A DNA stretch of 64,000 bases from the NCBI GenBank assembly GCA_036971475.1, contig JBAIZL010000002.1, forward strand, positions 233,507,643-233,571,642. The letters run 5' to 3'. The notes below the pieces were generated by a model. It worked only from the letters and a program-made list of their open reading frames with translations. It was not told the DNA's origin and ran no database searches. The translations under genes and the position numbers were made by a program. The stretch is from Prosapia bicincta. Its lineage: Eukaryota; Arthropoda; Insecta; Hemiptera; Cercopidae. This document shows positions 23,072-44,900 of the stretch, one piece after another (position 1 is the stretch's first letter; every line of letters starts with the position of its first letter).

Positions 23072-23507
23072 CAGTGGTTCCCAAACGTTTAACCCGTGGC
23101 TCTCCCGAGGTAAAATGTATTTAGTGTGACGCTTGTGCAGAAAATTATCTTTACTTCGTTTTTAATAAAGTGTTAAGTAATTATTTTAGTGCTGTTCTTC
23201 ATACAGTAGTAGCGCATAGCCTATAACAGTGTATTCTTTACAATTTCTTTTCTTAAACTGTAAAAATAGACGGATGGTTCAGGCCTGACGTCAGTTATTA
23301 CAAGAATTCTACGGGGAAGTGCAGACCCTTGGTATGTAGTCAGTAACTTTTTACTCTTAAACAAATTATTTTATCATTTCACTGCCACTACAATCTTGGG
23401 ACTCGACCAAGATATTTTAAATTCATTCGTTTAATTCTGAAGCTCGCCTCCGGTGCTTCTGATAAAGATGTAAAGGGTAGCCACGGCTTACACTTTGGGA
23501 ACCACTG
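23072..23507. mobile_element. Non-autonomous hAT-type element (436 bp)
   Basis: The left end CAGTGGTTCCCAAACG and the reverse complement of the right end (CAGTGGTTCCCAAAGTG) form terminal inverted repeats. The similarity extends inward to a shared CCGTGGCT, about 31 bp. CAGTGGTTC(C/T)CAAAC is a well-known hAT end. The interior encodes no transposase. The 8 bp flanks (TCTGACCC and CTTGTAAA) do not match, so the target duplication has decayed or an end has moved. Confidence 0.85.
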
Positions 23508-23984
23508 CTTGTAAACTGTATGTATATTAAAATTTTCTTCAAATTGTATTCTAGTATTCAAAAAGCACTTGAAAATGTGTGAAAAGTTATTATAAATTAT
23601 ATTAATAATATTATTATTATTATTACTATTATACTGTTTTGTTATTTTGTAAAATGATATGTAAAACGTATTTAGTTTTACCAAATATTTTTATAAAATG
23701 TAATTAAATTCGCTAAACACCTTCAAAACTAAATGTAGGGTAATTAAGCACAATTGAGTAAAACTACTCCGATACTGTTGGAATTTATGGCTTGGATTAT
23801 AGTTAGACATTATGGCAAAATAGACTAAATAAGGTAAATGGTTGCTTCAAGTGCTAAATAAACAGTATATTATAATAAGTTAATATGAAATATCACTCAA
23901 AAAGACATTATATTTGTTATAGCACCACTATCTATTTAGAAGTAATATTTTAAAAAACAACAGAATGTAGTTTTCTATTCATAC
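23508..23984. other. AT-rich DNA with an impure (ATT)n tract
   Basis: A trinucleotide-like ATTATTATTATT tract lies at about 23,600-23,625. No gene recognised. Confidence 0.5.
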
Positions 23985-24290
23985 ATGTTTCGGGAAAACT
24001 ACAAGATGTCTTCTTTGTGCGATTATAGCGTTCTAAGGTTACTTGTGATATTTAAATATTTCTTCCTATATAGTTATTGTAAAATATGACACAAACTTTA
24101 AATTTAAAAACCTTCAGACAAAAGGCGAAAACCACTTAATTCATCACAATTCTAATCGAACAAGAAATGATAAAATAAAAGCACTGGTCGAATAGACACA
24201 GCTGACACCCGATTCCCTTGCAGTTCAAAGTGTAGATCACTGCGATAGGAATTTTGTCGCCTACTCTAGTTGACAATGTATAAAGCTGAC
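23985..24290 (+). repeat. Interspersed repeat family C, copy 2
   Basis: Same sequence family as 14,090-14,570, in the opposite orientation. Shared blocks include TGTCTTCTTTGTGCGATTAT, CTTCAGACAAAAGGCGAAAA, CCCTTGCAGTTCAAAGTG and GCGATAGGAATTT. It lacks the central block present in copy 1. Confidence 0.82.
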
Positions 24291-24683
24291 AATGTATATA
24301 GGCAAACTATAGAAGGTTAATGATTCCAGCTTTGCCCAGGAAGTTGTGAGGGAGCGTGAATCAGAAAATAGGATTTGTGGATTGTGGATGTGAAAGCAAT
24401 GGAGATGATGAAAGGCTTTGTGATAATGTATATGCTAGTTCCGTGCTCAATGATAATAAAACCCGTTCATTTCAATATTTTGCTTTACCACAAAACATAC
24501 AGGCAGTGTTTATTTCTGAATGCATTTATTTTAATTAGTATTGACATTACACGGCTATTATACTTAGTCGATACATACATGAATATTTTTGAAAAATATT
24601 ATATACAGGAGTCCCGGGGGCGCTTTGACGATTCGCCATTAGCAGCCCTTTACGTTAACGTACTTGATGCGCTTCAATAAATA
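24291..24683. other. Intergenic DNA
   Basis: Two overlapping short open frames (24,356-24,538 and 24,375-24,680) show no recognisable domain and are probably chance. Confidence 0.35.
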
Positions 24684-24833
24684 TTGGATATGGCGGGAAT
24701 ATTCGGTGTAACTCTTATTGTGGCTACAATTTTTTCATCCTTGCCCCAGTATCTGTTATTGGATATGGCGGGAATATTCGGTGTAACTCTTATTGTGGCT
24801 ACAAAATTTTTTCATCCTGGCCCAGGTATCTGT
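24684..24833. repeat. 75 bp tandem duplication
   Basis: Two adjacent units begin with TGGATATGGCGGGAATATTC and continue identically through GTGTAACTCTTATTGTGGC. The period is about 75 bp with very few differences, so the duplication is fairly recent. Confidence 0.92.
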
Positions 24834-24837
24834 TCCA

Positions 24838-25440
24838 TGTTTAAACACTTTTCAGTTGTTTACAATCTTTAAATATAAATTTCCTTTCTGTGTAATTTAT
24901 ATGACTTTTTATACAACGCGTTATTTTATCATTTTAATTTTTGGTTAAATTTAAAAGTATATTTTACAACACTTCCCAATAAGGTATGTTGTATTCTCCT
25001 GGCATAGCCTAGGGCCTAGAGCTATTGTGTTACAGGAGGGAAAGCGGATCTGGCATAATAATGTTCAGAGAACTTAAAGTTAATCCCCACAGCGCGCTAA
25101 CACCACTCGCCACTAATCCTGAGGCAAATACATTATGTTTCCTTCGGCAAGCATAACATGGGCAACTGCTGCAGATTGACAAAGCAAAGGAAAACGCCTA
25201 AGCTTACTCGCTGAGAGTGGGCGTAATATAGCTAAACACTTTTCAGTTTTTTACTATCTTTAAATTTCCGTTCTGTTTATTTTATATGCATTTTTATACA
25301 ACGCGTTATTTTATCATTTTAATTTCTGGCTAAGTTTAAAAGTATATTTTACAACACTTCCCAATACGGTATGTTGTATTCTCATGGCATAGCCTAGGGC
25401 CAAGAGCTATTGTGTTACGGGAGGGAAAACGGGCGTAATA
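24838..25440. repeat. Tandem duplication with about 391 bp period
   Basis: The blocks 24,838-25,047 and 25,232-25,433 match closely (TAAACACTTTTCAGTT, ACAACGCGTTATTTTATCAT, TATGTTGTATTCTC, CATAGCCTAGGGCC). The middle spacer ends in GGGCGTAATA, and the second block is followed by the same word, so the unit may have been longer and partly deleted. Non-coding. Confidence 0.88.
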
Positions 25441-25494
25441 AAAAAAAGTATATTTTAAAATAAAACTGCAGCCTTGGATTAAAACTTAATGACC

Positions 25495-25720
25495 TAGTTG
25501 TATCTTTTCATTAAAAGCCTTTACATAGCAGAACACAATGCAACCAAATACCCAACTACTCATATGTAACAGCAAACATAAGCAACCCCATAAACTCACC
25601 TATGCGCACTGCACGATGCGGGGGGGGGGGGCTCTGAAGAGCTCCGAGGGTGCTTTTTCAAGTCATCCTCTGCTTGACTCACCATCAGTTTGCAATGCAA
25701 ATTTTATTAATAGCGTTTTA
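25495..25720 (+). repeat. Interspersed repeat family A, copy 3 (partial)
   Basis: Matches the central part of family A (AGAACACAATGCAACCAAAT, AGTCATCCTCTGCTTGACTC). It includes a run of about 10 G at 25,620. The ends of the family are missing. Confidence 0.85.
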
Positions 25721-26809
25721 TGTTCTCCTCTATAACCCTCTTTTATTTAGGTCTATGTTCACTATGTTGTATGTCATTAAAGCAACTACTTAGAGGCCAC
25801 ATTAAGCTGTTACTTGAATTACCCTTTGAAAATATTAATATTTCTCTTTTAAAAAAAGTAAATTTGTCAAAATTTCCATAATGTTATACAAACAAACGCA
25901 TATAACATAAACACGTAACAAAAATTTAAACAGAAACGACACTTCTCTATTTCCAACAAAAAGTTTTAAATTTGTGGTATTTTCCTTTTTTATACATTTT
26001 TATGAACACTTTTTTTGATAAAATTCTTCAAATTTTTATTTATGCATAATCTTATTTAAATTATCTTTGATTTATTATGTAAATGTAAAGTCTTTCTGTT
26101 ATTAAAATCAATAAAGACAACTTTATAACTAATGTCAAGAATTATGTTTGTAGAATACAGGCCTAACCTAATCATGTGTGAGCATTTAAGTAAAAGGGTA
26201 AAACACAAAAAAGTTAAACTAAATATTCGTTTACTTTATAATGATAGATTTTAAGAATTATTTATTTAGAAAAATTATCGCCACAAGGAATCAAATGTTT
26301 TGAAGCAAGTCATTTGGGTTATATGAATACCATAGTTTTGTCGCTAATAAATACAAACCGCGTTGAGAATACGAGAAATTTACATTCAGTTGTAGAGAAT
26401 CTATAGGTAAATGTGAGAGGAAAGATAAAACCGATGATATCAACGGATCAGAACATTGCTCCAAACATACTTTTCACACATGTTAGGATATTTACAATTA
26501 ATTGTAATTAGGAAAAGATAACCTCGCACTACCTTAAGGCACATGTAAAGTAATTGCCATGCATGCATAGTAAAGAATAGGAATAATATCAAATAATACT
26601 TATCAAATACAATATCTTTCTTTACAATAGACTTAGGCTACATAAATGTGATTATGGCGTAATAAAAGTATTTGTGTAATTTACATCTTATTCTTTATAA
26701 CTAATGTCAAATCTTTGGCTTGATGAAAACAATTTTACAAAACAATAAAGAAACCTCAAAGATAATTAATATTGGAAACTAATTAAACTTACACTAAACT
26801 TACATTTAA
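25721..26809. other. AT-rich intergenic DNA
   Basis: No gene or repeat recognised. Confidence 0.4.
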
Positions 26810-27005
26810 TCTGAAAACCTTAACACAAAATGCCAAAATACCAACGCATTCACCAAAGTTTCAAACTATTAAGAAAATATAACATACAACCTAATAAACG
26901 CACTGGTCCAATGAACAGTTTAGATCGCGGCGATAAGAATTCTCACTCGTGTTGGCTGTGGCCGTCTCGACCTTCTGTTTGTTGTTTACTGACTCACGTT
27001 AATAC
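26810..27005 (+). repeat. Interspersed repeat family C, copy 3 (diverged)
   Basis: Aligns in order with the 3' half of family C: ACAAAATGCCAAAATACC, a middle CACTGGTCCAATGAACAG, then GCGGCGATAAGAATTCTCA and TGGCCGTCTCGACC. Clearly more diverged than copies 1 and 2. The open frames running through it (26,830-27,132) are not supported as genes. Confidence 0.6.
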
Positions 27006-27558
27006 GTTGCCAATGAATGTGATAGCAAGAATGGTTTGTTTTATATTTATACAGGTAAATATATTGCGTTATATATTCATGCTGGCTTTTTTTGGTAAAT
27101 ATTGCATATGGAAAAAAATTAAGAAGTGTTAATATAACAAATATTTCGAAAAACATGAACATATCCGGATTGTTGAGAAAAATCATGAACCCTTCCCTTA
27201 GTGGAGTTCCCAGACATCGGATAATCAATCCTTACTTTTTAAACTTTCCAAAAATAAAAAAGACGGGTGTACACCCCTAATATTTCATGACGTGTGTAAA
27301 CCTCCTATTAAACCTTGTCAAATGGTAATATAATTTTAGTTTTAAAATTTTACATTTCAAGTTAGATAATTAAGATATTAAAAACATGGTGTTAGTAGCG
27401 AAACTATCTTTTTCAATTTTTCCTAATTATTCACTCTATTTGCCTTAAAATGAATGATAGACCTAACATATGATTTCATAAAACATAAGCTTTAGTCTAT
27501 ATGGTAGAGCAGCTGTGTTAACGCATATGGCAATTTACTTTATTTATATTAATTGTAA
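27006..27558. other. AT-rich intergenic DNA
   Basis: No gene recognised. Confidence 0.4.
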
Positions 27559-27559
27559 C

Positions 27560-28005
27560 TTTATATACATACAAAATTGGATGTTTGTAAGTATCTATGT
27601 ATGAGTCTTATGGAATTCTAAACCACTGATCCGATCGCTATGAAACTTTGGGATTGTTTAGTACATTCGTGGGAAGATTTCCGGCGTCATAACAAATTTT
27701 TTTCCCAAAATGTAATTTTTAAGTGCCAAAACAGCATAAAATTTGACTTACTATCTTAACTTATCCTAATATATTTCATTGAATTCACTCCAAATTTTGG
27801 TTGCTAGGCAACACTCAATTATCTAAAATTATTTTCCAACACATTTCAAACAATATACAGAAAATATTGTACATCGGAGTGTTCTTCAATATATAAATTT
27901 AATCAAGAACTTTTTCACATTTTTCACGATCGACTACTATAAGTTTATCTGTTATTATGTTAATAAAATACTAAATTAGGTTTAGCTAATGTTAAGACGC
28001 CATTC
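27560..28005 (-). repeat. Interspersed repeat family B, copy 2
   Basis: Reverse complement of family B copy 1 at 13,180-13,790. Plus-strand blocks include CCGATCGCTATGAAACTTTG, TTGGTTGCTAGGCAACACTC and ACTAAATTAGGTTTAGCTAA. Confidence 0.85.
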
Positions 28006-29055
28006 ATTGACTTTTAGGGTATACGAAGTTTGGTGGGTCAGCTATTATTTAATAAAAAAGTAACCAAATCGAAATTGTTCTATATAAATTGACTTTAAAA
28101 ATGTTTTGATTCTATTACTTGTCAAGTTATCTGGTGCGGTTATTAATATAAACAAAGTGTTTCAAGATAGCGCTTTCAAAAAAGTTTGAATAGATTGGCC
28201 TTGGCACAGGACATATGGAAGATCATTATATCATGTCGGCCGCGGTGCGTACCTGAGATAGATGAACTCCTTATTGAGGTTTGCGGGTTACGTGTTGTGT
28301 ATCTTGAGGTTTGTTAATTTACTACTATTGCTATCACTTGGCAAAAACACTTCTTTATTGAGGTATAAAAGGGTGTTTATTCCAATACCCCTTGTAGAAG
28401 GAAGGATAAGGGAGGGTGGGTGGAATTAGGGACATGGCCTAGTTGTCCCCACTAGTATGAATAGGAGGGATATTAAAGGACCAAGTAGAACTGCTCATAC
28501 CCGGAGGAAGAAATATGTCTACAGTCCACACGGAGATGCATGTTTTTTTTTTAAAGAAAAACGGCGGATAAAAATTCAGACTTTTTTCGTTTCGTATAGG
28601 AAACATTTTGTTGGGTTGAATATGGCAGACATGTGGCTGTTTTATAAACGGCTTGCATCGTGCAAAATTGGAAATGAAAAATCATTCAAGAAACAATTTG
28701 TGAAACATTCATTGATAAAAACAACTAGACATTTCAGGTTCCACTTTAAAGGGTTTTTAAGTCCATATCTCTGCAAATATTTAACAAAACAAGATATAAT
28801 ATATACCAAATGAAGGAAGAAAATTATATTTTAATTTATTGTCTTCAGCTTTTAAATAACAGTTTTTGAGTAATTGGATATAGAAAACGAATAGTTTTCG
28901 ATTTTGTATTGTATAAAGCATTCTTGTATTTAATAAGTCAGAATAAATTCGTTTGACAGAAGTGCCTGACGATTCGTTGTTACAATAATTTAATAGACTT
29001 AGAAGCAGCACAGTTTGCCTACTACCCTACAATATAGCCAAACATTGGCACTACA
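28006..29055. other. Intergenic DNA, no supported gene
   Basis: A 118-codon open frame at 28,457-28,813 is rich in Lys, Arg and Phe and has no recognisable domain. Part of it (28,560-28,680) resembles non-coding DNA at 2,210-2,330, so I treat it as repeat-derived. A TATAAAAG box occurs at 28,363 in GAGGTATAAAAGGGTG; nothing downstream confirms a promoter. Confidence 0.35.
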
Positions 29056-29059
29056 ATCA

Positions 29060-29485
29060 CAGAGATAAAGTGGCAATCTCACAAAAAAACTCCAGAAAAA
29101 CTCCTGGACCAGACACCATCACCAACACAACGCTGAAAAACCTCACGAAGAAAGCTATCACTTATCCCCCCATCATCTACAATGTTATACTCCAGACACA
29201 ACACGTCCCGGACGCTTGGAAGGTGGCCAAGATCTTGGTCTTCCCCAAACCGTGATAATATCACAGCAAACCTGACTCATACCGACCGATAAGGTTATTG
29301 AATGCGATGGGAAAGGTATTTTGAAAAAATTCTGCTCAAATGTACCAAAAAGCATATTCACACACTCAACATACTGAGGCCAGAGTAACGTGGCTTTAGG
29401 ATAAGATACTCGGCCACGCATCAGCTGATGGGAATGGTGGAACTTGCAACCGCATTACACTCCAGTGGACCATTTTATATGCCAA
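29060..29485 (+). pseudogene. Jockey-group LINE reverse transcriptase fossil (N-terminal RT part)
   Basis: Translation gives AISQKNSRKTPGPDTITN, the conserved N-terminal RT motif with PGPD. It continues with LKNLTKKAITYPPIIYNVIL and DAWKVAKILVFPKP (the canonical W..A.vv.i.KP block). After frameshifts come PDSYRPI-LLNAMGKVF and a further block with EQRGF-like and SATHQL-like words near 29,390-29,430. The palm catalytic motif is not reached. It covers an RT part different from the fossil at 626-1,240, so together they may derive from related elements. Inactive. Confidence 0.8.
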
Positions 29486-29849
29486 TACCCATTTGAATAA
29501 AAAATCTATTTCGAGTTTTTTTTGCGCTCATTCCTTTTGTTAACCTTTGTATATAAAAATAACACCCAGTCAACAGTATTTACCCAGAAAATGGTTTCTC
29601 GGAAACAGTTCATTATACAGGCCTATAAAAAAAAAAAAATTTATTTTGGTGCCTAGGATCTTAGAACTGATTTTAGTGATATTTGGGGCGCTGAATCCAA
29701 ATATGAAATCAGTTTTTCTCTACCAGCTCCGCTTTTTCAGATAATCGTTTTTTTAATGTGCAGTTTAATGCAAATTTTGCAGTTTTAACTGTATTTTGTG
29801 CAGTTCTAAAGCTCATATACATATATTGCTTACATACAAGCTTATCTTG
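29486..29849. other. Spacer
   Basis: No gene recognised. Confidence 0.35.
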
Positions 29850-30955
29850 GATACTTTGGTGTTAGGCTTGGTGATCAGGATAAAACGTGGACACCTCATC
29901 AGGTCTGTAAAACTTGTACAGAACATTTACGACAGTGGACTACCGGAAAAAGAAAAAGTCTTAAAATCGGCGTACCGATGGTTTGGAGAGAATCCCAAAA
30001 TCACTTCGATGACTGCTATTTCTGCTTAGTAAATATTACTGGAATCAATCGAAAAAACCGTAACAAGTGGACTTCTCCTGATTTAGCTTCTGCAAGACGT
30101 CCAGTTCCTCATTCAGAAGAAGTACCGATTCCAACTTTTAACGAGCTACAAGAGCTATGTGAGGACGAGTATTTTCCCTCTAATAACTCTTCTGATTCTT
30201 TTGAAGGTGGCAGTGATTATGAGGGGATGTCGTCAATCCCTCAACGTTTCAACCAGGACGAGTTAAATGACCTCATCAGAGATCTCAACCTGTCAAAAGA
30301 AGCATCTGAATTATTGGCTTCCAGGTTGAACGACAAAAATTTATTGGAACAAGAAACCCCAAATTTCTTTTTACCGCACAAGAGAAAAGGATCTGCTACC
30401 CTTCTTCTCTGAAGATGACAATCTGGTATCTTGTCACGATATTAGGGGACTATTGGAAAAATTGCTCTTCCTGAATATTTTCCAGATGAATGGCTCCTAT
30501 TTATTGACAGCTCAAAGGGAAGTTTGAAATGCGTCCTTCTGTAAAATGGCAACAAATATGGCTCAATACCGATTGCTCACTCAACAAAAATGAAAGAAGA
30601 GTATAACACCATAGCTTTGGTCTTGGAGAAGATGAAGTATCTTGAATAACAGTGGGTGATTTGTGTGGACTTAAAAATGGTAAATTTTCTCCTTGGACAG
30701 CAAAGTGGCTACACCAAATATTTTTGCTTTTTGTGCCTCTGGGATAGCAGAGACAAAACACACCACTGGGTTAGAAAAGAGTGGCCCAAGAGAGAAAACA
30801 TGTACGTTGGGGAAAAGAATATAATTAACGAGCCCTTAGTTGGGCGAGAGAAAATCATCTTTCCTCCATTACATATCAAGTAGGGCCTTATGAAGCAGTT
30901 TGTAAAGGCTGTTGATAAGAACGGATCATGCTTTTCACATGTAGAAAAGCCTTAG
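29850..30955 (+). pseudogene. Broken gene of a multicopy transposon-type protein family
   Basis: Reading through several frames yields a coherent protein. TWTPHQVCKTCTEHLRQW comes first (about 29,890). The longest open piece (29,978-30,412) carries MVWRESQNHFDDCYFCLVNI, PVPHSEEVPIPTF, an acidic linker, and LNLSKEASELLASRLNDKN. After frameshifts come WLLFIDSSKGSLKCVLL-like and VLEKMKYLE-like segments. A second open piece (30,656-30,883) carries ICVDLKMVNFLLGQQSGY, FCFLCLWDSRD and IIFPPLHIK, and a last fragment is KQFVKAVDKNGSCF. From memory, related proteins are annotated in many copies as uncharacterised proteins in arthropods and cnidarians, which suggests a transposon origin; I cannot name the superfamily. 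The C-terminal part is missing where the sequence runs toward the 28 bp minisatellite. Confidence 0.65.
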
Positions 30956-31019
30956 GTTCAGGATTGTTGCTATATCTATTTCAGCCTCTCGACTAAGACA
31001 AATACCTCCATCAATTCTT

Positions 31020-31163
31020 GGGTAAAGCTACCTTGGAGTCAGACCATAGGTAAAGTCACCCAGGAGCCGTGCTTGAGGTAAAGCCACCCAGGAGCTAGGC
31101 CTTAGGTATAGCCCCCATAGAGTATGGACTTAGGTTAAAACCATCCTGAAACCTGGCCCTAGC
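31020..31163. repeat. 28 bp minisatellite, 5 units
   Basis: The landmark GGTAAAGCCACCCAGGAG and variants recur at 31,021, 31,049, 31,077, 31,105 and 31,133, exactly 28 bp apart, with divergence growing to the right. It lies immediately before the bacterial insert and may mark the junction. Confidence 0.9.
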
Positions 31164-31166
31164 TAG

Positions 31167-31485
31167 AGGGCTATGCCAAGCGATGCAGAAGCCTGTATAG
31201 TTGAAGATGAGAGGGATGATATGGTAAACCAGCATGGCATTAACATTGCACGTTTGAAAGGTTCTGTATTCATAGACCAGGAGCCAGTCTACGAATATGA
31301 AAACGAGCAGCGTGAAAGCAAACAACAAGAGGGAAAAAGGTTACTACAGCACGAGAGAAAAAAATGTCCCTTATAAATGTTACTATAAAAGACACTACAT
31401 CGAAAAAGACGTGCTCGCATGATTCCATTGCTGACGTGACGCAGGATTCATTTGAAAGTGTAGCTGATATAGCAGAAGCTGAATG
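31167..31485 (+). pseudogene. Possible bacterial gene remnant upstream of ispG
   Basis: A 67-codon open frame (31,173-31,376) is strongly charged and Glu/Gln-rich (GSVFIDQEPVYEYENEQR, then QQEGKRLLQHERKK). A shifted frame continues with [20 protein letters not shown] just before ispG. I do not recognise the protein. The position next to ispG and the composition suggest Wolbachia DNA, possibly the 3' end of a neighbouring gene, but host origin is not excluded. Confidence 0.4.
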
Positions 31486-32693
31486 ATCTGGCAGAAAAAC
31501 CACACCGACATAAGACTCATGTTGTAAAAGATGGGCAAGTAAATATAGGTGGAAATAATCCTATAGTTGTGCAATATATGGTGCTAGGTGTGTATATAGA
31601 TCCCGGTAACATAAAAAGCAGTGCTAAGCAATACGCAAAAGAAATAATAGAACTGGTGCAAGCAGAGAACTGGTGGGACCCACTACTATATAACTACCTT
31701 ATATAGTAGAGGAAATAAATAAAGAAGGTTTCGACGCTAAAATATTGGTAGGTTGCAGGCAATATGAATTGGACAAACTAGTTCAAGATTATCCAGATAA
31801 CATTAAAATGCTAGGTAAAATCAGGGTAAATCCAGGCAATATAGGCTTTGGCAACAAGTGATGTGAAATTTGAAAGGGTTATAGAATATGCAATAAAACA
31901 TGATCTCCCTGTCAAAATTGGAATAAATTGGGGCAGTCTAGATAAATACCTTGCACAAAAACAGATTGATGAGAACTCTTCATCCAGTGATACAAAATCT
32001 TCTGATGTAATATTGCGCAAGGCACTTGTTTTATCAGCTCTGAGGAGTACAAAAAAGCAAAAGAAATTGGCCTCAGTTTGATAAAATAATCATTTCGTGT
32101 AGAGTGAGTAGAGTGCAAGATTTTATTTCAAGTTACTCGGCGCTTGCAAAATCTTCTAATTATGCTTTGCACTTGGGCTTAACAGAAGCTGGTATGGGCA
32201 ACAAATGCGTGATAAATACCACAGCAGGGCTTACTTACTTATTACAAAATGGTATTGGAGATACGGTACGTGCCTCTTCAACTCAACGCCCTAGTGAGTC
32301 ACGAATTAATGAGGTAACGGTGTGTCAAGAAATATTGCAGTCTATAGGCTTAATCCTCAAGTTAGCTCATGTCCTGGATGTGGGCGCACAAGTAGCGACA
32401 GTTTTCGTATATTGACTGAAGAAGTAAATGATTATATAAAAACTCGCATGCCGATCTGGAAGAAAAAAAATTCAGGTGTAGAGCATACGAACATTGCTGT
32501 TATGGGTTGCATCGTAAACGGTCCTGGAGAAAGTAAACATGCAAATTTAGGAATCAGCTTGCCTGGATATGGAGAAAAGATAGTTTCAGCAGTCTATAAA
32601 GACGGCAAGTACTTTAGAACTTTACAAGGCAACAATATCTTTGAAGAATTTAAGACAATTATCGACAACTATGTGGAGGAGCGTTATACATAA
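31486..32693 (+). pseudogene. ispG: ispG (gcpE) pseudogene of Wolbachia type
   Basis: IspG is the [4Fe-4S] 4-hydroxy-3-methylbut-2-enyl diphosphate synthase of the bacterial MEP isoprenoid pathway, which animals lack. Nearly the full protein can be followed in order. [20 protein letters not shown] is near the N-terminus. After a deletion of roughly 30 bases near 31,670-31,695 come [20 protein letters not shown] and [15 protein letters not shown] frameshift near 31,855 leads to [12 protein letters not shown], and another near 32,060 to [22 protein letters not shown] and [11 protein letters not shown] last shift near 32,345 leads to an open C-terminal piece (to 32,693) with [14 protein letters not shown] and [20 protein letters not shown]. 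The three cluster cysteines (CPGC and MGC) are retained. At least four disruptions rule out function. The close match to Rickettsiales wording makes the origin secure. Confidence 0.92.
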
Positions 32694-32734
32694 AATCAGT
32701 CTAAGCTAAAACGCAATTATTTTTGCGCCTTCAA

Positions 32735-33115
32735 ATGTCTTAAAAGCTGCATATCCAAGTAGTCCCCTCTTCTGTCATTCCAGCGCCCTTTTCGTGTCAT
32801 GTCAGTGCGTGACACTGGCATCCATCCTTTCCATAATCATCAAAGACATTGCATTTCTCAACACAATATTTTACATTTACAAAAAATTTCTGGATCCCAG
32901 TGTCTGAGCACTGGGATGACACCATCATAAAGCGTCACGCGCTGGAATAACAAAAATCCAAGTAGCCCTCTTCTTGTTATCCCAGTGCCCTCTTCTTGTC
33001 ATCCAAGTAACCCCTCTCTTGTCATCCCAGTGCCTCTTCGGTGTCATCCCAGTGCATCCCCTCTTGTCATCCCAGTACCCCCCTATTTGTCATCCCAATT
33101 TCTTTTTATTGGTAT
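32735..33115. repeat. Wolbachia-type TGTCATCCCAGTGC intergenic repeats
   Basis: Variants of TTGTCATCCCAGTGCCTCTT recur at least eight times. A near-palindromic GATCCCAGTGTC with CACTGGGATGACA lies at about 32,893-32,922. Such CATCCCAGTG hairpin repeats are common between Wolbachia genes, here between ispG and the next gene. Non-coding. Confidence 0.85.
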
Positions 33116-33367
33116 TGTCTTTTTTGTAGAAAACACTTCCTAACTTTTTACCGCTTTTGCGGGATAAGGCCACAAATGATAATTTTTTTATGAAAAAATG
33201 TTGTACTACGTAAAATATTATTGCATTGGTAGGTAAGAATTTTCTATAGCTAGAGAAATTTGACTGCAAGACTAATAGATACTTGATGAGAAGCTAGCTT
33301 TACTTCTTATTTAACGGTTATGGCAGTAAGAAAATTATATTTTTATTAAGTGAGGGTCATGTTTTTA

Positions 33368-34566
33368 TGAATTAAGAAGATGGGGCTAGTCTACATAGAC
33401 TACCTTTAAAAATAACTGAGGAGAAAAACCATTTAGAACATGTAGGAGGAGACATACTGAGATTCTCGCAAGAGAACCCAGCACTAAATAGAAACAATAG
33501 CCAACCACTGGCTACCATTGGCAGGAATGTGGAAGGTGAACAAGACTCAATACCAGTGCATTTAGTAGTTGGCAAAGGACCTAAGCAAGAAAATAAAAAT
33601 TCAAAAATATTACAACCAGATAATCAATTGAAAGATAAAAGAAGTGAAATTAACTGAAAGTGAGGAGGGTCTAATTAGCGAATTTCATAAAGATCTATCT
33701 AGTGTACCGGTAGAAAACGATAAATGTTGTGAAGGTAATAGTCCCACAAGCAATGCTTTAAGGTGCATATTGAATATAACAAAGACATACTTAAAAAAAG
33801 GAATAATATTAAATGGTGGTAAGCACGTTATAACAGATTTGGTGTTCTCATGAGCGCGTGCCAAATGTATTAACGAGTGATAAAGAAAATGCAAAGATCG
33901 TACATAATATCGTGGATAACTTACTGCTAAGGGGTGGAAAAGTAGAATACAATCTTTTTCATGAGAGTAAATTACCGAGCGTAGTCCTTAAGTTCAGTGC
34001 TGAGGCTACTTTAAAATGTAAAAAAAATTCATGAAGAGCTAAAAAGTTTAGCAAGTGAAGGTGTTATAAATTGTAATACTCAAGGTGAAGTTTTAAACAC
34101 AGAAATAGATAACACATATTTTAATGTGAGATATTCGCAAGATAGTATTATTGATGTTTCAAAGATTGTAGATAACCCAAGGATAAAAGATGATTTAGAT
34201 TTAAGATGTCACATATTTCACATAGGGAAGAGTATAGTAGAAGTTGATAACACACGAGAAAAGAAAAACTATACAAATGTTGAAAGAGGTAGTATTAAAA
34301 TGTCTTTTAATACTGAGATAGGACAGATTAGTATTTACTTAAGTCCTGATGAAAATAGTAATAAAATAAAAGTAGAAATTGATGAGAAAAACAGAGCAAA
34401 GTTTCAAACAAACTTAGGGAAGAACTCCCTTTTAGGAGGAAAAAGCGTCCTGCAAGCTATAGAAGACGGAAGTTTTGAAAGAAGTGCGTCTATAAAGTCA
34501 ACTGAGACTATAACACAATTAAATGATGCAAAACTGTATCTACTTCTATGGAGCGAATTTATGTAA
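33368..34566 (+). pseudogene. Second Wolbachia-type gene, broken, function unknown
   Basis: A protein of about 400 residues can be followed in one strand through three or more frameshifts. The order is ASLHRLPLKITEEKNHLEHV (33,383 on, after an in-frame TAA at 33,374), then EEGLISEFHKDLSSVPVEND and GIILNGGKHVITDLVF. A shifted frame gives HERVPNVLTSDKENAKIVHN and LLLRGGKVEYNLFH. A final 146-codon open frame (34,126-34,566) contains SIIDVSKIVDNPRIKDDLDL, KKNYTNVERGSIKMSFNTE and SVLQAIEDGSFERS. It is hydrophilic with no signal peptide or membrane segment. I do not recognise the family; bacterial origin is inferred from position after ispG and the Rickettsiales repeats. The C-terminal region is the best preserved. 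Confidence 0.65.
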
Positions 34567-36389
34567 ATTAGCAACAAAAAGAAATAGAAATAAGATAGTA
34601 TGTTTTGTAATGGTGAGATAAATAACGCTGGTAATTGATTGTGAATGAGTAACCTTATCCAGATGAAATGGGTTGTTACTGCCAGGAAGCAAACCATCAG
34701 ATTAAAAAAAAAATAATTCTCACTGGATTATATTTTAGCTGCTGAAAATGGTTTTGTTTAAATTTTTTAGCAATATATATCAACGAATTAGTGTTATATT
34801 TATTTAGAAATAGTAGAGAATAATTACGGTAATTTTTATACTCCAGTCAGTGAAACCCACACCCCAGCACTACATTTTGAAAGCACAATTCAATGAATTT
34901 TAAAAAATTTATGTTTTCCATCTTGTCACTCAACATACACTTGTAGTTTGAAAAAATATTTAAGAGAGTTTTATGTGAAATGCGCTGACAAATCGTATAA
35001 ATCCCGCCCCACATATCTGTATCTAATAGTTTAGGATAAACATAGGGTAAAGCAAAAAAACGTTACGGTCGAAAACAGTTTGTGTGTTTGAACTACAATA
35101 ATTTTATTAGATTGCTTTTAAACCTTAAAAATGAATAACAAAATTTATAGAAAATTTAATTAAAAAAAAATAATAATAATATAAAAATCAATAAAACTAA
35201 TGCAGTTTTCTTCTAAATAAATGTTAACACTTAAAACTAAAAAAATAAGAGTATCGCGGATTGCTAACGAAGTAGCCTAATGATAAAATGTAAGTCAACT
35301 TCTCTCGAAATAATTTTATTACAAATCGAAAATATATTCAAATAATCTACATAGTTATTTATAAAATTACTTAATAAACTTATATTCATACCAGTATTAC
35401 AAGAGCTGCTCAAAACGTCCATCTTTAATTGGTAATACGCATCAGCCCGACGATTTAAAGAGGCCTATGAATTCTCTAACATTAGAATGTTTTTTATTTC
35501 TTAGGTTGCAATCATTATTTAGTGTGAAAACCCATGTACTTTAACCCATTTTTGAGCATACACTAAAGACTCCGTGTGTTTCAAAATTTTGGCCTCGTCG
35601 AGTTACAGGGCGATACAAATAAGCTGGCGTTCAGTCATGTTGGAAATACATGCGTCTTCGTCTTGTCAGTGGTACATCCACTAAGAGCTCAGGTATTTCT
35701 GTTTGAAGAAAATTCGACGACTAAGGATTTTAGTTGAAGGTAACAAATAACCTTCACTGCTTCGTTACCAATGAGTGATTTTCATAATTTTTAGATAATT
35801 TGTGTGTTTCTAAATAAAACTGAATTTAAAACAGACTTTTACGATTTATTGACTCGATTTAGAATTTTTTGTAAATAAAGTGCTCTACGAACTTAATTTA
35901 TCACTTTTGTTTATTGGTACAACATTTAACAGAGGTATTGTAGTTTAAACGCAAAAAATGTTTCTCCGATCTATAATTTTTTGTTTTAAAGCAACATTTT
36001 CCTAATCTATTGAACATCGAGTTCAGGGACAAGTTTTATACTATTTCACAGCTCATTTTACATTCAACCCATCTAATAAACAAACTCAATTAACGACCTA
36101 AAATTATCAAAGAGAGTTAATTTAATGTCAGGAGTTTAATATCATGTGACATCTTTGACTCTGCATAACTAGTCAACGAATCATTTTCGAACACATGTTT
36201 CTATGAACCTTTTCATTTTTTTGGTGAGAGGAGTAAACTTGTAACATTTTGGCGAATTCCTTCTGAAACATTTTGTAGTCCATAAAATCGCTAGAATCTC
36301 ATTTATCATTTGCAGCTGAACGCAAAAAAAGATGAGGAGTGAATGAAAGACGCACACAACTCTGCTCCTATAAAGAGTAGACAACCAAG
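34567..36389. other. Right border of the bacterial insert and AT-rich host DNA
   Basis: 34,567-34,850 is probably still insert by composition; after about 34,860 no bacterial feature is seen. No gene recognised. An open frame at 36,181-36,435 (minus) has no family features. Confidence 0.4.
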
Positions 36390-36849
36390 CAATATAAATG
36401 GAAGGATGTAGTCTGGTACATGAAAGGATTGACAAACTTTGGTTGGCTGATCTGCCAACTGCTTCGGCCCTTGTTCAGGATGTGTCCGCGGTGCATAGGT
36501 GTCGGAGCCTGTTCACATTATTACAAGTGTTCGATGCTCATCCAGTCGAGCTAATGAGAAAAGTTATAGATCTTAGAGATTGGGAGTTGGAAATGATCTT
36601 TATATGATCAAATGCTGTACCCGTTCCTATATTCCCACCCGTGAAACGATGTCTGACCTAAATACATCTATGGAACCAAAACATACGTCTAATGGAACTA
36701 TTTTGAGGAGGACACATCAGGTCCATCTGATGAGCCTAAGGGTGATGAGAGGAGTATAAAGTTGAGGGGGAAACGTCGCTGACATTGCCATCTCCAAAAT
36801 ATTAGCTTAGGTACTTTCAAGTGGCGAAGAAGGAAATGTTCTATCTAAA
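36390..36849. other. GC-richer DNA before the LINE fossil
   Basis: A 69-codon open frame (36,398-36,607) with HPVELMRKVIDLRDWELEMI looks protein-like but is not recognised. It could be an upstream part of the LINE that follows. Confidence 0.35.
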
Positions 36850-39060
36850 GTATCTCCCTTCCCTATTAACAATGCTATCACTGCATACGCCTGAGGTCCA
36901 GTCAGTTCTATTAAAAAATTAAGAAATGGAACACTGCTTGCTGATGTCAATGTAGTGATAGACAAACTCTTTCTCTTGGTTAGAAGCGACAGTATTTCTC
37001 CTATTGAAGCTTGGTAAAGTCAAAACCAATTACAATATTTATAGGTCTATATCTCTTACAAGCGCCATGTGCAAGCTAATGGAGAAGATGGTCAACCACA
37101 GTCTTGTCTGGTACATAGAAACGAACTGTCTTTATTGCAACGAACAGTGTGGTTTCAGACGATCATCTGTTTACCAATTTATTTTGTCAGAATCCGCTAT
37201 TTAAGGTGCCTTTCTCTTCCGTTAAACACTCTTTCCTAGCATCCATCGCTAGGCTCACGTCAAGTAGATCTTTCCGCCTTTGTCTTGAAGGGATCTATTC
37301 CAACCGTTATAAACAGGAAAATGATGTACCGTAGGGCAGCATGCTGAGCGTAACAATGTTTGCCGTTGACATTAGTATTATAACATGTATTATACGATCT
37401 ACAGTACACTGTCCCCTCTTTATAGATGATTTCTCTATTTATGTGCCTGCTCGAAATATGGTAACCGTGGAAAGATCTTTCCAGTTAGTGATAGGCAGAC
37501 TAGAGGATTGGTCAAGAACTACAGGTTTTAAGTTCTCTACTTAGAGAACCAAATGTATAGCAATTAGTCAACACCAGGAGCACATCCTTTATCTTGATAA
37601 AGTTCAACTTCAAACCACGGATGATGTTCGATTTTTAGGTTTTTATTTGATAATAGACTTTCATTGATCTCTCATGTTCATACTTTGAAAGTGAGATGAA
37701 GCAAGAAAATATATATGTTGAGAGTCCTAAGTGGTACGAATTTGGGAGCTGACAGAAATAGTATGCTTCGATGCAATCGCACAGTCGATATCTCGTGCAT
37801 AGACCATGGCTGTCATTATGTCCTATTCATCCGCACGACCTACAGCTTTAAAAACTCACGATGCCTTCCACCACTCTGGACTTAGACTTGCTACTGGTGC
37901 GTTCACAACTAGACCGATCTATAGCCTTCTTGTCGAGGCTAGGGAACCTTCCTTGTCAAAACGACGTCAAATGCTAAACATATCTCGTTTATTTCTGGAC
38001 ATCGAAGTAAACTTAATTATTCTTCATTCAAAATGGTCTTTCACAACCAGTACGCACCTAACTATGATGTACATGAACGATCAGCCTCGCCATTCGTCAT
38101 AAGAACGTTACACATAATCGATATCTGTGAGTTGGTACTTCCTACTACATTCGAACGAACAATGTACCCCATCTACATCCTTGGATAGTAAAAATGCCAA
38201 ATTTCGATATCTTTATTGTCCAGTTTTATCAAACACACTACTGCTGATGGGGTTTAACACCTGGTGTTTTTGACAATTTCCAGATCCCACGAATAGAGTG
38301 AATTTATTTTCACTGACTGGTCTAAACTGGACAATGGCGTTAGGTGTGCGGTTTATGCGTTACTACGTACCTACACGTACGGATTAGCCACGGCTTGTAG
38401 TGTTTTCACAGCAGAACTGTTTGTCATTTGTAAAGCTCTTACCGTCATTTAATCTAGATTTTCTCATTACCTTCTGTGTTCCGACTCTGAAAGTGCACTT
38501 CAGAAGTTTAAGGATGTGTTATCCGTGAACCCTTTAGTTGGGGATATTTTGTTTGCATTACAAAATCTTACATTGGGATGGGGGGGTTAACATTTTGTTG
38601 GGTTCCTGGTCACTGTCGGATTACCGGTCACATAATAGCGGATGATGCGCCAAAGTGTTAAGACACACACCGAGTTATGACATCTGATTACATTAGTTAT
38701 ATTAAACTCTCATTGGGTGATGCTAGGAATGATGAATGACAATGTGTCAATTAAAAAGGGCTAATGGATATTAAGGATACCGTCCGTAAATGGATATCTT
38801 CTTTTCGTTCGAAACGTAAGGAGGAAGTAGTGGCTACCTGCCAAAACATCGGCCACTCTTATCTAACTATATTGTTTATCTGATGCGTTGCGAGGACCCG
38901 TCGTTATATCAGTTCTGTGGATAAATACCAGTCATATACTGATAGATTTTAGTGGTTTGAAACATGTTTGCGACAGGTTTATTATGTAAGGCAGTTGAAA
39001 GCTGGTGTCAAAGGACTATGCCGCGGCTGTCGACCGTGTCATCGCGTTCATCGCCACCTA
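36850..39060 (+). pseudogene. Internally deleted I/R1-group LINE (ORF1, RT and RNase H remnants)
   Basis: A short ORF1 piece (36,860-36,990) reads SSIKKLRNGTLLADV, the KKLRxGxLLVEV block of LINE gag-like proteins. It runs straight into reverse transcriptase at about 37,010, so the ORF1 end and endonuclease are deleted. RT blocks are NYNIYRSISLTSAMCKLMEK (YRPIaLTs), QCGFRRSS, a DVP-GSMLSVTMF block, and FIDDFSIYVPARN at 37,419 (catalytic DD kept, preceding Tyr changed to Phe), then GRLEDWSRTTGFKFS and DDVRFLGFYL. An RNase H remnant follows at about 38,305-38,640, with FTDWSKLDNGVRC, FTAELFVICKAL, CSDSESALQKF and a degenerate VPGH-like block. A C-terminal EDPSLYQFCG resembles the zinc motif after RNase H. 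Many stops; inactive. RNase H favours the I/R1 groups over Jockey proper. Confidence 0.8.
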
Positions 39061-39760
39061 AATATACTTTTTAAAAGTTGATATTTGAACTTTTAAAATT
39101 CATAATTTACATTTTTTACATTTAACGTGGTATAGAAATATTCATCTTATTTTGTGTTTAGAGTTTAATTATTGTTAACAAACAATTTTTTTAATATTTT
39201 TATTTATTTTCTACATTAGGTGTTAATTTTTATTTTTATAGATTTATTGTTATGTTGCTTTGTTAACTATTGTTACGTGTTACTTATTGTTGTTGTATTT
39301 ATTTATTGGTATGTTTTTCTTTATTGTTAGACATTTATTTTTCTATAATTACTCTTATGTTTAAATTTTGTTTTTTAACATTTGTAATTTAAGTTTTATA
39401 TAAAATTTTATATTTCAGTTCTATCTAAAATATTGTATTTTTCTTTACTATTGATTAGCGATGGTAACCATAATTGGTTTTTCGCTAGATAAAAATATCA
39501 GATCTATGAGGTCAATAAAACAATTATGCTTCATTATTTCATAAGATAAGTTATCCTACTATATTTTCTTTTTCTAGACTCCTACTAAGTATTCATTTAT
39601 GATTCAGCCTCAATTTTATACTTTAGTTGAAAATTTGTTTACATGACTTTAAACCATTTAGACGATCACATAGGTCCTAGTATATTAGTTTTTATTTGGT
39701 TAACCTGTTTATCGGTTTTTGTGAATCCTGATTTATTTTTCATGTAATGTGTGTTATATA
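39061..39760. other. T-rich DNA
   Basis: No gene recognised. Very T-rich from 39,060 to 39,450, possibly the LINE 3' untranslated tail. Confidence 0.4.
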
Positions 39761-39761
39761 A

Positions 39762-39838
39762 ATTTTGATGTCAGCATTATTATCTCTCACACCATACGAC
39801 AGTCATTATGTGAGAGATAATAATGCTGATATCAAAAT
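39762..39838. repeat. 29 bp inverted repeat with 19 bp loop
   Basis: Left arm 39,762-39,790 and right arm 39,810-39,838 are complementary at 28 of 29 positions (core CAGCATTATTATCTCTCAC and its reverse complement). A weaker match extends outward (TGTAATGTGTG against the complement of ACACAATTACATT). The transcript would fold into a long hairpin. It may be a MITE remnant or an inverted duplication; no mature small-RNA evidence is available. Confidence 0.93.
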
Positions 39839-39839
39839 A

Positions 39840-42197
39840 CACAATTACATTATTATTGTATTTAGGGCCTAACTGTTTGAAGATAGTGTAAAAATAACAA
39901 CATATATAGCATACTGGTATAAAACGTTTAGATTTAAAACAAAGTAATGGCGCATATAACTATGAATCATGTGCAAATGAGTTTAAAGAGATGGCATATT
40001 TATGATTCCCCATCAAATTCTTATAATACTAATGTTATACTTGAAATTCTGATTATACCTTATCTTGATCAAATATTGTATCTTTGATGTGATTTGTCGG
40101 CGTGAAATATAAAAAACAATTAAAGCTATTGCATACAGATAATAATTATGACATAATACATTACCACGTACCTATTCAAATGTGTTTATTGTATATAATG
40201 CAGGCAAAGGTTTTATAAAATTTTTATGTTTATAATCCCAATAAAATAAGTTATATTTAGTAAGAGGAACGCAAGCACTTTGTAGTGTAAATCGATTTTA
40301 AATTAAATAAAGTTAAAGTTCAAAAAGTTTAGAGGACCAAGGAAATTACAAAAACCCGTTCTGTCGCAGAAAGACATTCATTATGCCGTAAAGAAGAAAG
40401 TCTAAAAAGGGGTTCCCTCGGTTTTAGAATTAAATCTAAAGGGATAAAGTTTTTCTTTTCGTTTTTAACGCAACAGTTTAAATTGTTTTTATACACAAAG
40501 AAGTTAAGTTTACCTCGTTGTTCACTTTTTCATTATACAGCTTTATCTTTCAGATGATGATAATGTGTACCGTATTAACAACATGGAAATAATTACCAGA
40601 GGAATTCAATGTTGTGTTTGAAAGCAAATTGCTACTCCTTATTAATTATTTGTTATTGGAAAGCTATTATTTTCCTTTATATTTGTAAGTTCTCATAAAA
40701 GATTTTTGAAAAGGTTATTTAGCGGGAAGATGTTTTATCCTTAGTTATATCGAAACGTGAGGATTCATAATGGTGAATGGCATAATCTGGTCTGATACCA
40801 TAACGTACCGGCTTAGGTAGATAACGGGTTTCCGATTATCTTCATGTTTTTTCAAGAATATTTAAACAGGACAGGTTTTGAAACTACATAATCAGTATCC
40901 ATCGAATGCAAACTTGGTTTTAAGTAGGCCTACATCCCGTTTGAATTTACAAATATAATATATAAATCCATAAAGTATTGCCAATTTATTTATGCTGTAG
41001 CGATATGTGCATCAATAAAACCGTATATTTATTTACTATTATAAATAATTTAACTAAAGTGTGCAATCTCAATATTTACGGTGTAATTACAACGATCATA
41101 GGTTTCGTTTTATTGTTTTACACGTTTTATTGGCAGTATGAGATATATTAACATGTTTTTATTTTAACCTATATAAAAGTTAATCTTCAACAAGGATATG
41201 GCTTTATTTTGGAAATATAAAAAAGGTGTTTATTAATATCCAATTACTTCAAGTAAATTTCAAACTTACTTTGCTTTACTCAATTTTCTACTCTTAATTC
41301 TATTATATTGCTATACCATTTCGAAATCTATTTGTTATCACCTATTCCTAGAGCATTCCAATTACTGTGCTAAAGAAATGCTTTACTTCTTGCGGAAACT
41401 GTCTAGGAAATTAGAATTCACCTAGGCACTCTATGGGACGCTGTCTGGAGCAAAATTCAAACATAAGGATTTCATTAAATCGACCTTAATAGAGAGTAAA
41501 TAATACAAACGTAACACAAGTAAATCATTAGTTGTTTATTAATGCATATGCCTTTCAACAACCCAGCTAACCGCACCATATTTTGTTGAACTACATTATA
41601 ATAAAATATAAGTAAATAACAACAAGGTTTTAAACCAAGTCCGTAACTCACAAGTAATGTTAAACATCACTGATATCAGTAATGTTGTCTGTTAGTAATT
41701 CGGACCCAAATAGAAACAGACTTACATTCAAGGGACCGTTTTGCCATTAAATTTTAAGATACTGATTAACTTTAATTCGTTAATACTAATAAATTACCTC
41801 TTAAATCTATAACATATCATAAAAAGGAAAGTAGAAAAATAAATAGATACGAGTGAATAAAACAGGTACTTTATATAAAATTATTAAAAATATAAACAAC
41901 TAATAAATTTGACACCTCCAGTGATAAAAGTAGAATTTATTTGAATATATTTTACATAACTTTACACGTGGCTGATAATTGAGATTTTATCTTTTGAACT
42001 TTATCTCTTTAACTTGAAAACCTTTTTACTCAGAAGATAATTAGAGTATGAAAGCCTTGAATGTAATTTAGAATTAAAATAATAACCAGTTGGTGGTAAA
42101 TATTGATCTGGGACGAAAATATTGGTCGTAATAGTGAACATTTCATAACAGATGAGAGTGATAATTCTATAATAATGGATATATACATTCATTTGGA
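39840..42197. other. AT-rich intergenic DNA
   Basis: No gene or repeat recognised. Confidence 0.4.

Positions 42198-42226
<29 letters not shown>
42198..42226. repeat. (GT)n microsatellite
   Basis: About 14 GT units. Confidence 0.95.
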
Positions 42227-42228
<2 letters not shown>

Positions 42229-44900
42229 GCACAAGAATGTGTGAAACATTATGGTGCGGAAGAATAAGTATTAGCTCATATACGTTGTTATTGCTATGGA
42301 TATCGATAATCACATAATTCCTCTTCGTAAAAATAATATTAGTGACTAGGGTATTAGGCTCAACGATAGAAGTCGCTTTATTAAAACAAGTCTTTCCGCT
42401 CTCGGAACTTATATTAAAGCCATATGTCACACATTTTAATAGGGCATTCTTCCTTGACAATGTGAGGGGGAGGAGGTAGGCTACATGACATATTTTTACA
42501 AGGTAGGTTTTAAATTGTCTTGTACTCTATTGGTGTTAGAAGGCTATTTAAACGGTAATACAAACATTTATTATACTAAGCAAAATAAAAAAGGAATAAA
42601 GTTGAATGATTTTTAAAAAAATTTTAATAAATCAGATAGATAGAAAAATAATATTATATGTTCGGACATAGATGCCGTCACTTTGAGCCCGTAGTTAAGG
42701 TATGATATCCTTTTTTTAAATTTAATAAAAAGATGAATCTTATGATAAAGTTTTAGGAAAATAAATTAATCGAGTTTCTAATCACTGAAAACCTGTTGCT
42801 GTGTGGCTCTTGCTACGAAGTTTATTGACAGTTCGGTAATCACGTCATCCTAAAATAGTCGATAAAGCGAGCGATACAAATATTAAATGATTTGAGAACT
42901 GTCAGACCAAAACACACATTAGTATAAAAAAATCATTTTAAGTAAACATTGTAAGTACCAAATGTAGAAATAGGGACAAATGGGAAAATGTTTCTACTTT
43001 TAATAGGTCTGATTGGAATTATTATTATAGTAAATATTCCTCGTTACTTAATTAAGTGTTCAGTAATAGTCAAAATACCAGCCAAGCGCTAAAGTAGGCC
43101 TATTAAGTAGTAGATTCCAGGCATTGGAGATTAAGAAAAACATAATAAATATGTGTTTTAAATAGCTTGTCATGTCTGATTGTGACGAATGATGATTTAC
43201 AAAATATGCACTTTTGGTGTGAAATAGTTTGAAATAAATAACCGTTAAATCCAAGTGATATTCACCAATTCATCTAAACCTTTTGAAACATAAATAGACA
43301 AATAACAATGTTGTCGCCTATATTTTCAAAACGTTATTGATGCTTGTACTTCATCCTCGTAAAGCGTCATATTTTTGTTTTAAATCAATTTAACGCCAGT
43401 ACAGGAACAGTTTAATTGAAAAACACATTTTACTTCCGAGTTTAATTGTTCCCATGGTTACAACATTAATGTTTATCGCTTGGCGGAAGTGCGGTCGTTA
43501 AACTTGACAAAATCATAAGCAAATACTAAACGCAAACATTTACATTTTTCTCCGGTAAAATATTCCAAATACTAAAACATAAATTTAAATTTTTGCTTGA
43601 TTTATATCTATGAAAACATTGACTGATTAATTTAGGCCTATATTTCGATAATGAATAAACGTCTGACAGACACGAAGTGGTCACACGAGTCATAATTACA
43701 CTCTTGTGATAGTTCAGTAACAATTTTAAAATCATGGTAAAAGCCTTGTTTTGCCATTATAATACTTCTTTCACTGCACACTTCTTTGTTGTGTATCGAT
43801 CAATCATACCCATCACATTTCCATGTTCTACAATCTTATTATAGATACGAAGGTGAGGTATTCAGGCTTTTAATTTTTTTTAAGCTTCCCATACATGTCT
43901 GAATAAAAGTTTATGCTTTTTTAAGCAAATATACAAACACAACTATCGCCTCATGTATATAAAAGTTGAAAGGTTTGAAATTAAAAGTTGGAAAGAAAAA
44001 ATGTAAACTAGAGTAGTATTTAAAATATTAGGCATAATTAATTTGAATCTGTCTAATTAAAGTTAATGTGATTAGGAAACCTAAAACAAGCAAATTCAGT
44101 AAATACCATTTACATAGTTATGATCATAGTTTATAATTGAATCTTTTGGGGTAAGTTCTTTCCGAAAACAATTCTTTGAGTTTCTTAGCTTCTAATTGCT
44201 AGTAAAGGTCTAGTAAATCCTCCATGAAATAACTTAACTAAAGTTTAGTAGATAAACTAAAAATCGTACAATAACAATTTAGGAAAATGTAGGCAAGAGT
44301 TATCCTAGATTTTCACATAATATTTGAAATTGTTTACCAATTCATTAGGAACAAAATATGAATCCATAAAATAGGTATTATGAGTTCATATTCAATCGGA
44401 TATAGAGGATTAGAAGTAAAAAGAGCCAACTATAGTTTCAATATTGCCAATCTTAAACTAATTATTAGATAAATAAATTTATTACCGCATAGTAATGTTT
44501 TTGACAGGGCAAAGTATACAAAACACAAGATTGAGTGTGAAGGGAAATGAGTGTATTAAAAAGAATAATTTATGGCTTTAGACTTGCAGGTGAAAATGGA
44601 TTCATGTTGATATACAAATAATTTATAGTCAAAGTGAACAGATATATAAGAAGGAAGAATATAAATAGAGATCAATACTTTAAGTAAAACACAGAGAATA
44701 ATTTCAGTTTAATTAAAACTAAATATACTCACTTCAAATTATGTTACGTTCGTAAACAAAATAAAATTTACTGTGACTTTATTACAACATATTATTATTG
44801 AAGTTGCTTGGTGTAATCATCTTGAATTCAATGGTTAAACTATATTTAAAAATACATAATTAAGTGAATACATAATTGCGTACTTTCTGTCGCGTTTAAA
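42227..44900. other. AT-rich intergenic DNA
   Basis: No gene recognised on either strand; short open frames lack family features. Confidence 0.4.

Follow-up and report, generated by a model that had tools for sequence, protein, structure and literature searches.

A decayed Wolbachia segment in a chromosome of Prosapia bicincta and the dispersed nuclear family to which it belongs

When decayed bacterial genes lie beside host DNA in an insect chromosome, does their position mark the place where bacterial DNA entered that genome? We addressed this question for a block of apparent Wolbachia origin in Prosapia bicincta (Hemiptera; Cercopidae). The window, meaning the whole stretch of 64,000 nucleotides that was analysed, is C146:233507643-233571642, and C146 is a 404.8-Mb contig in a 2.207-Gb assembly of 361 contigs. 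Positions given without a contig are those of the window, and L numbers name individual loci. A first-pass annotation, made from the sequence alone, had described a decayed Wolbachia segment here and had called it the clearest cross-kingdom transfer in the window. The origin, the decay, and the nuclear residence were all supported, but a single simple transfer at this site was not, as the block is one of at least 34 such places. We consider it very probable that the window block arose when an already decayed nuclear Wolbachia copy, cut short at both ends, was joined to host DNA secondarily, and that segmental duplication then carried it to five places.

The block and its joints with host DNA

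Along the + strand, the block holds a TRP75-like fragment, ispG, CATCCCAGTG-type repeats, and a frameshifted hypothetical gene, in that order (Table 1). The broken ispG of the first-pass annotation was recovered. Five frame pieces over 31473-32690 fit GcpE/IspG models, the first two weakly and below the curated cut-offs, and the match to the 417-aa Wolbachia IspG P0147 runs through frames 2, 1, 2, 3, and 2 across 31479-32690. Among the 76 of 120 listed IspG proteins that were compared, the top score belonged to the Wolbachia-named P0133 (84%, 391 aa), and the most identical was P0147 (88%, 311 aa). The CATCCCAGTG-type repeats, also named earlier, include tandem units at 32956-33097 (Tandem Repeats Finder, TRF), and 63 nt of them are 84% identical to Wolbachia phage WO of wRi (MN180249), the sole phage record matched. 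What had been listed as a second bacterial-looking gene is bacterial: the homologue of its piece at 34015-34563 is P0001 (51%, 89% of the query), a protein annotated as hypothetical from the Wolbachia endosymbiont of Scaptomyza pallida; this search found three proteins among 52 candidates, P0001 and two that are unnamed. The copy of this gene in L102 matches P0001 at 46% over 166 aa. The TRP75-like fragment at the left end of the block is a third gene fragment, beyond the two genes of the first-pass annotation. Its profile match reaches 35 bits, under the curated cut-off of 75, and L102 gives the same match at 40 bits, also under the cut-off.

By the ancestry of ispG and of the second gene, together with that of murB in longer copies described below, the window block is Wolbachia DNA. 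An Rfam scan of the window at gathering scores gave no match. A genome scan for ispG relatives had none titled Wolbachia among the 80 loci listed. A scan of viral contigs found no relatives of P0001 and one ispG, on the phage-like contig L081, which served as the outgroup. The block first placed at 31165-34850 is real, but those limits were off and are corrected to 31175 to about 34966.

We searched the assembly with both joints of the block. The left-joint search scored 40 places: 5 had the whole joint, 20 the Wolbachia side only (from 31175), and 15 the host side only (ending near 31168). The right-joint search scored 40 rows, with the whole joint in 6, the Wolbachia side only in 18, and the host side only in 16 (from at or near 34967). 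The six whole right-joint rows make five places because two of them, at C313:9.08 Mb, face each other. At that site (C313:9077110-9080285), the two right joints are inverted, face to face, and about 1.6 kb apart. The block is thus contiguous with host DNA on both sides, and each joint stands at five places in the assembly.

The host sides of the joints were compared with copies that lack Wolbachia DNA. All 5 left copies fetched (of 15) run past 31167-31168 into other, common host sequence, and all 6 right copies fetched (of 16) extend to the left of 34967 with common sequence. A transposon end at 34967 and a natural end of the left minisatellite at 31168 had been candidate explanations of these borders, and both were rejected on these copies. 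Both flanks are therefore host repeats broken mid-element. The filler at the left joint and the shared A's at the right one would be in keeping with end joining.

The chimeric site itself has been copied in the host. Its inverted duplicate at L091, 2 Mb away, matches the window continuously over 20500-46264 and further out in three samples (97.4-99.5%) that reach 1909 and 52083, so that the partner duplication is 50 kb or more long. Of the 20 other copies fetched, L091, L092, and L093 have their host flanks in common with the window: to the left and to the right, about 10 kb each are 96.6-98.5% identical, and the match goes on for another 8 kb in both directions, apart from local gaps. A fourth sample from the L091 side, L120, did not match the window. 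We do not take this as the limit of the duplication: the distance to the downstream host repeat is about 35.8 kb at the window versus 29.0 kb at L091, and with this offset L120 may fall past the end of the window. All five chimeric places are followed, about 22-36 kb downstream, by a host-only copy of the right element in the same orientation, so that the duplicated stretch may exceed the window. The window and L091-L093 also group together at support 1.000 in both trees that were built, an ispG tree and a longer-sequence tree (the latter excludes L110). About 296 nt are missing from the window, L091, and L093 (Table 1), most simply through a deletion that took place in the host once the site had been duplicated. 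At a second breakpoint, 8 of 12 copies inspected (20 fetched) are cut at a common point within secD, next to AT-rich sequence that is presumably of host origin. The common junctions show copying in the host at least for the window group and probably for this second group of eight.

Table 1. Features of the Wolbachia-derived block and its surroundings (window positions)
Feature	Position	Strand	Basis or distribution
Stretch common to window and inverted duplicate (L091 region) 2 Mb away	1909..52083	+	96.6-99.5% identity
Left-flank host repeat with minisatellite	30949..31168	+	host-only best rows; tandem array 31017-31117
TRP75-like fragment, N-terminal domain	31175..31373	+	NCBIfam NF038243, E 1.7e-8 (match spans 31167-31373)
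Left joint	31168..31174	+	host minisatellite repeat broken, 6-7 nt filler, then Wolbachia DNA
Wolbachia-derived block	31175..34966	+	both ends cut short versus longer nuclear copies (alignments; junction-search breakpoints 31175, 34965)
ispG pseudogene	31479..32690	+	four frame changes, residues 64-80 lost (frame map versus P0147)
2-nt frameshifting deletion	31857	+	11/16 rows: window, L091-L093, L095, L099-L101, L103, L104, L106
10-nt frameshifting deletion	32349	+	12/16 rows: the eleven with the 2-nt deletion plus L102
CATCCCAGTG-type repeats	32763..33100	+	TRF rows, repeat families, phage WO match
Deletion site, about 296 nt	33097	+	deleted in window, L091, L093; not in L092
Frameshifted hypothetical-protein gene known from Wolbachia	33376..34563	+	frame pieces; last piece homologous to P0001
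Right joint	34964..34967	+	shared A's, within host element (junction alignment)
Right-flank host repeat	34967..43400 (far end provisional)	+	copies elsewhere begin at or near 34967

Copies across the genome and their divergence

A 126-aa C-terminal piece of ispG gave 42 matches at 32 places in the genome. Counting the window and L110, block DNA was found at no fewer than 34 places, spread over 8 contigs (16 on C146, 8 on C313, 4 on C260, 2 on C340, and one each on C199, C321, C322, and C361). This count merges ispG matches within 8 kb and adds the Wolbachia-side rows of the two junction searches, and it is a lower bound. The 3' junction search alone gave two of the 34 places, one on C321 and one at C313:8.09 Mb. 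Clusters are formed by 12 places at 349-377 Mb of C146, 5 at 3.6-9.1 Mb of C313, and 3 at 53-57 Mb of C260. None of the 42 ispG matches lies in an open frame longer than 173 aa, versus mostly 405-435 aa for full-length Wolbachia IspG. Therefore, no intact ispG was found at these 32 places of the assembly.

Of the 31 other places known from the ispG search, 20 were fetched and compared. Homology continues beyond the limits of the window block in 16 of them (L094-L109). The genes read in longer copies are pieces of secD, hemC, and murB, then the shared block, and then manC and virB9 (frames read in L100 and L102, families in L102 and L107). The top hits of the L102 murB were at 88% (unnamed), 86% (a Wolbachia metagenome-assembled genome), 87% (unnamed), and 83% (W. 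pipientis). In L104, at about 5778-7798 of the oriented sequence, about 2 kb lie inside the second gene that are absent from the other copies aligned there.

We then considered whether the copies diverged as genes. The ispG alignment, on which the ispG tree is also based, kept 16 of 21 rows; L094, L096, L097, L098, and L105 were dropped, as they match the window only from 32126. In columns present in at least 12 of 15 related copies, variable ispG sites fell on codon positions 1/2/3 as 63/64/60 (p=0.93). This even spread implies that the 15 copies diverged without coding constraint. The corresponding counts were 21/26/18 for murB, 29/31/33 for manC, 50/38/40 for hemC, and 51/36/43 for the second gene (5, 12, 16, and 18 copies, respectively), none significantly uneven. 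Thus, purifying selection after transfer was not found in these five gene regions by codon-position distribution. Relative to a reference copy, frameshifting indels occur in 11 of 12 manC, 12 of 16 hemC, and 17 of 18 second-gene copies; murB is free of frameshifts in 3 of 5 copies and hemC in 4 of 16. Long frames are kept by manC in L107 (403 aa), ispG in L110 (311 aa), and murB in L102 (280 aa). Divergence among the copies reaches about 7%. C>T or G>A changes were seen at 22 of 84 CpG sites versus 65 of 517 others (p=0.002, with columns that are not independent and polarity set by majority), and CpG-biased C>T changes are expected of methylated animal DNA.

The nuclear residence proposed earlier is supported on several grounds: the contiguity with host DNA in the 405-Mb contig, the host repeats broken at both joints, the recurrence of each joint at five places, the divergence among copies without regard to codon position, and the excess of C>T changes at CpG. 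With 34 places, common host flanks, and neutral divergence, the family is an amplified, multi-copy nuclear Wolbachia transfer.

One copy stands apart. L110 (C260:263198700-263208690) is about 79% identical to the 15 copies, and the fixed differences between them fall on codon positions 1/2/3 as 40/22/96 (p=5e-13). This third-position bias implies that L110 diverged from the 15 copies under constraint, i.e., in bacteria. Its neighbours differ as well: ispG is surrounded there by ftsK, a DnaJ-ankyrin gene, an EF-Tu-like GTPase, and unassigned frames. The ispG of L110 is closest to P0124 among the 76 proteins compared. L110 is a Wolbachia insert from another lineage, and at least two transfers are therefore needed.

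Bacterial 16S genes were searched for in the assembly, with 5 of 8534 candidates scored. Four of these places have ispG copies in their vicinity, at 6.6-8.1 kb in three cases and at about 65 kb in one; the remaining place is on C340. The 16S near L107 (part read as L133) is nearest to Alphaproteobacteria at about 83%, among plasmid records, and it is altered at sites kept in the C340 16S, e.g., in the ATTAGATACC motif. To judge by their position, the four places near ispG copies are probably Wolbachia 16S genes. These four and the regions around ispG are the part of the genome that our analysis covers. The fifth place, C340:60376727-60378243 (part read as L132), holds a full-length bacterial 16S that is unlike the Wolbachia-type one (74% identical to L133 over the aligned part); the contig is 62 Mb long, and the match is about 1.8 Mb away from its end. 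This 16S presumably resembles Flavobacteriales insect symbionts and is either a nuclear insert or misjoined symbiont DNA.

Order of events and competing explanations

The two frameshifting deletions in ispG give an order to these events. The 2-nt deletion is absent from L102, L107, L108, L109, and L110, and the 10-nt deletion is absent from L107, L108, L109, and L110. Seven copies with both (L095, L099-L101, L103, L104, and L106) extend past both window joints. As longer nuclear copies have the window's deletions in common, the block is probably part of an older nuclear insert and reached this site secondarily.

In our model, a stretch of Wolbachia genome, about 10 kb or more as implied by the longer copies, entered the host germline. 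Coding constraint was then lost and frameshifts gathered, and duplication in the host amplified the insert into a dispersed family. A truncated, already frameshifted piece of 3.8 kb became linked to host repeats unrelated to it, with end joining in break repair as the probable route. Finally, the chimeric site was copied within segmental duplications of tens of kilobases, to reach the five places seen now. The data show the many copies, their neutral divergence, the host repeats broken at both joints, and the copying of the chimeric site; the size of the first transfer, the repair route, and the derivation of the window piece from a nuclear copy rather than straight from the bacterium are inferred.

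Several points weigh against this history. Both trees have a star-like base, and L110 joins inside the family in the ispG tree with a support of only 0.669, which makes the position of the root uncertain; there may have been several early insertions, or duplication may have come in a burst. L107, L108, and L109 have neither deletion, and several near-identical early insertions are possible. The common indels could have spread by gene conversion, the CpG test is weakened by its dependent columns and majority polarity, and the comparison covers only 20 of the 31 other ispG places. Misassembly at a single joint is possible, as the evidence comes from the assembly alone, though both joints recur at five places.

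In a rival reading, the window block would be a direct, independent insertion from a Wolbachia strain whose ispG was already broken, and the other copies would be other insertions. We regard this as unlikely. The 15 copies differ from one another without codon bias, unlike the fixed differences to L110, the common junctions point to copying by the host, and the listed Wolbachia IspG proteins are mostly full length, although the star-like base and the three copies without the deletions would suit it and at least two donors are needed anyway, since L110 differs. An assembly artefact, with symbiont sequence collapsed or misjoined into host contigs, is very improbable: the same chimeric joints stand at five places, and the copies are decayed, mutually diverged, and without an intact ispG. 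In its favour are the reliance on one assembly and the second bacterial-type 16S on C340. We give hardly any credence to the domestication of a transferred reading frame under selection in the host. The long frames in manC, ispG, and murB and the copies of murB and hemC that escaped frameshifts would be expected of it, but codon-position bias is missing from all five genes and frameshifts pervade manC, hemC, and the second gene. A decayed nuclear copy that was rejoined and duplicated by the host remains our preferred reading, and the block most likely has no coding function.

Neighbouring elements and known nuclear Wolbachia DNA

The first-pass annotation had set the block between transposon fossils. 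Transposon fragments do occur elsewhere in the window, but the left neighbouring frame (29810-30409) has no Pfam match. The right-flank repeat has a weak RVT_1 match at 36962-37201, below the cut-off. An earlier search for this repeat scored 7 of 21191 candidates and missed the window itself, and it is not a census. At C79:187616746-187704328 and C260:63390004-63482040, the repeat occurs three times each in the same orientation, about 36-56 kb apart, a spacing that suggests long-period tandem duplication. Further along, a 1296-aa open frame at 54197-58087 has protease, reverse transcriptase, RNase H, and integrase domains, an order that we take to be Gypsy-like; a 365-aa frame at 53178-54275, without a Pfam match, overlaps its start. 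Adjoining weak matches to reverse transcriptase and GIY-YIG at 47462-48573, both below Pfam cut-offs, are presumably Penelope-like. Transposase fragments are DDE_Tnp_1_7 at 60994-61741 on the - strand, presumably of piggyBac type, and an ISXO2-like domain at 4-342 on the + strand.

Amplified nuclear Wolbachia DNA is already known. Chromosome 4 of Drosophila ananassae is described as holding multiple nuclear Wolbachia copies with unequal copy numbers of parts and host retrotransposons within the insert (PMC4299567). The present family is alike in its multiple copies, in the unequal copy number of its parts, and in host retrotransposons in the insert; it differs from that account in consisting of decayed pieces over 8 contigs, with host junctions at base level. 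In the nematode Brugia malayi, nuclear Wolbachia DNA is reported to be extensively duplicated, to include 32 open reading frames that are complete, and to be transcribed in part in a stage-specific manner (PMC3849323). Nuclear Wolbachia gene fragments are duplicated in both cases, whereas complete frames are given there and ispG is broken here at all 32 places seen. The f element of the isopod Armadillidium vulgare is described as an insert of about 3 Mb with genes mostly without nonsense mutations and a sex-determining role (PMC5541319). Like the present family, it is nuclear Wolbachia DNA of large extent that was duplicated many times after its insertion (up to 170 kb); in contrast, the pieces here are dispersed, broken, and known from sequence alone. 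Mostly intact genes like those of the f element were not found, as ispG is broken at 32 of 32 places and most copies of three further genes, although not of murB, are frameshifted. A literature search, which was not host-specific and says little, returned no report that we recognised as nuclear Wolbachia DNA of this host. Against this background, the present family is a well-resolved new case, with an unusually clear anatomy of a known process.

We offer one further idea tentatively, and on balance doubt it: the Wolbachia DNA may now be part of a dispersed host duplicon family, in chromosome regions that undergo repeated copying and take it along with long-spaced host repeats. If true, bacterial fossils would mark active large-scale duplication, perhaps tied to heterochromatin or to a sex chromosome. 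As every copy preserves joints of its own as well as shared mutations, the family allows entry, loss of constraint, amplification, truncation with re-insertion, and further duplication to be put in order. It also shows that a single bacterial gene next to host DNA may not have been transferred where it now lies, which matters when genome surveys count transfers.

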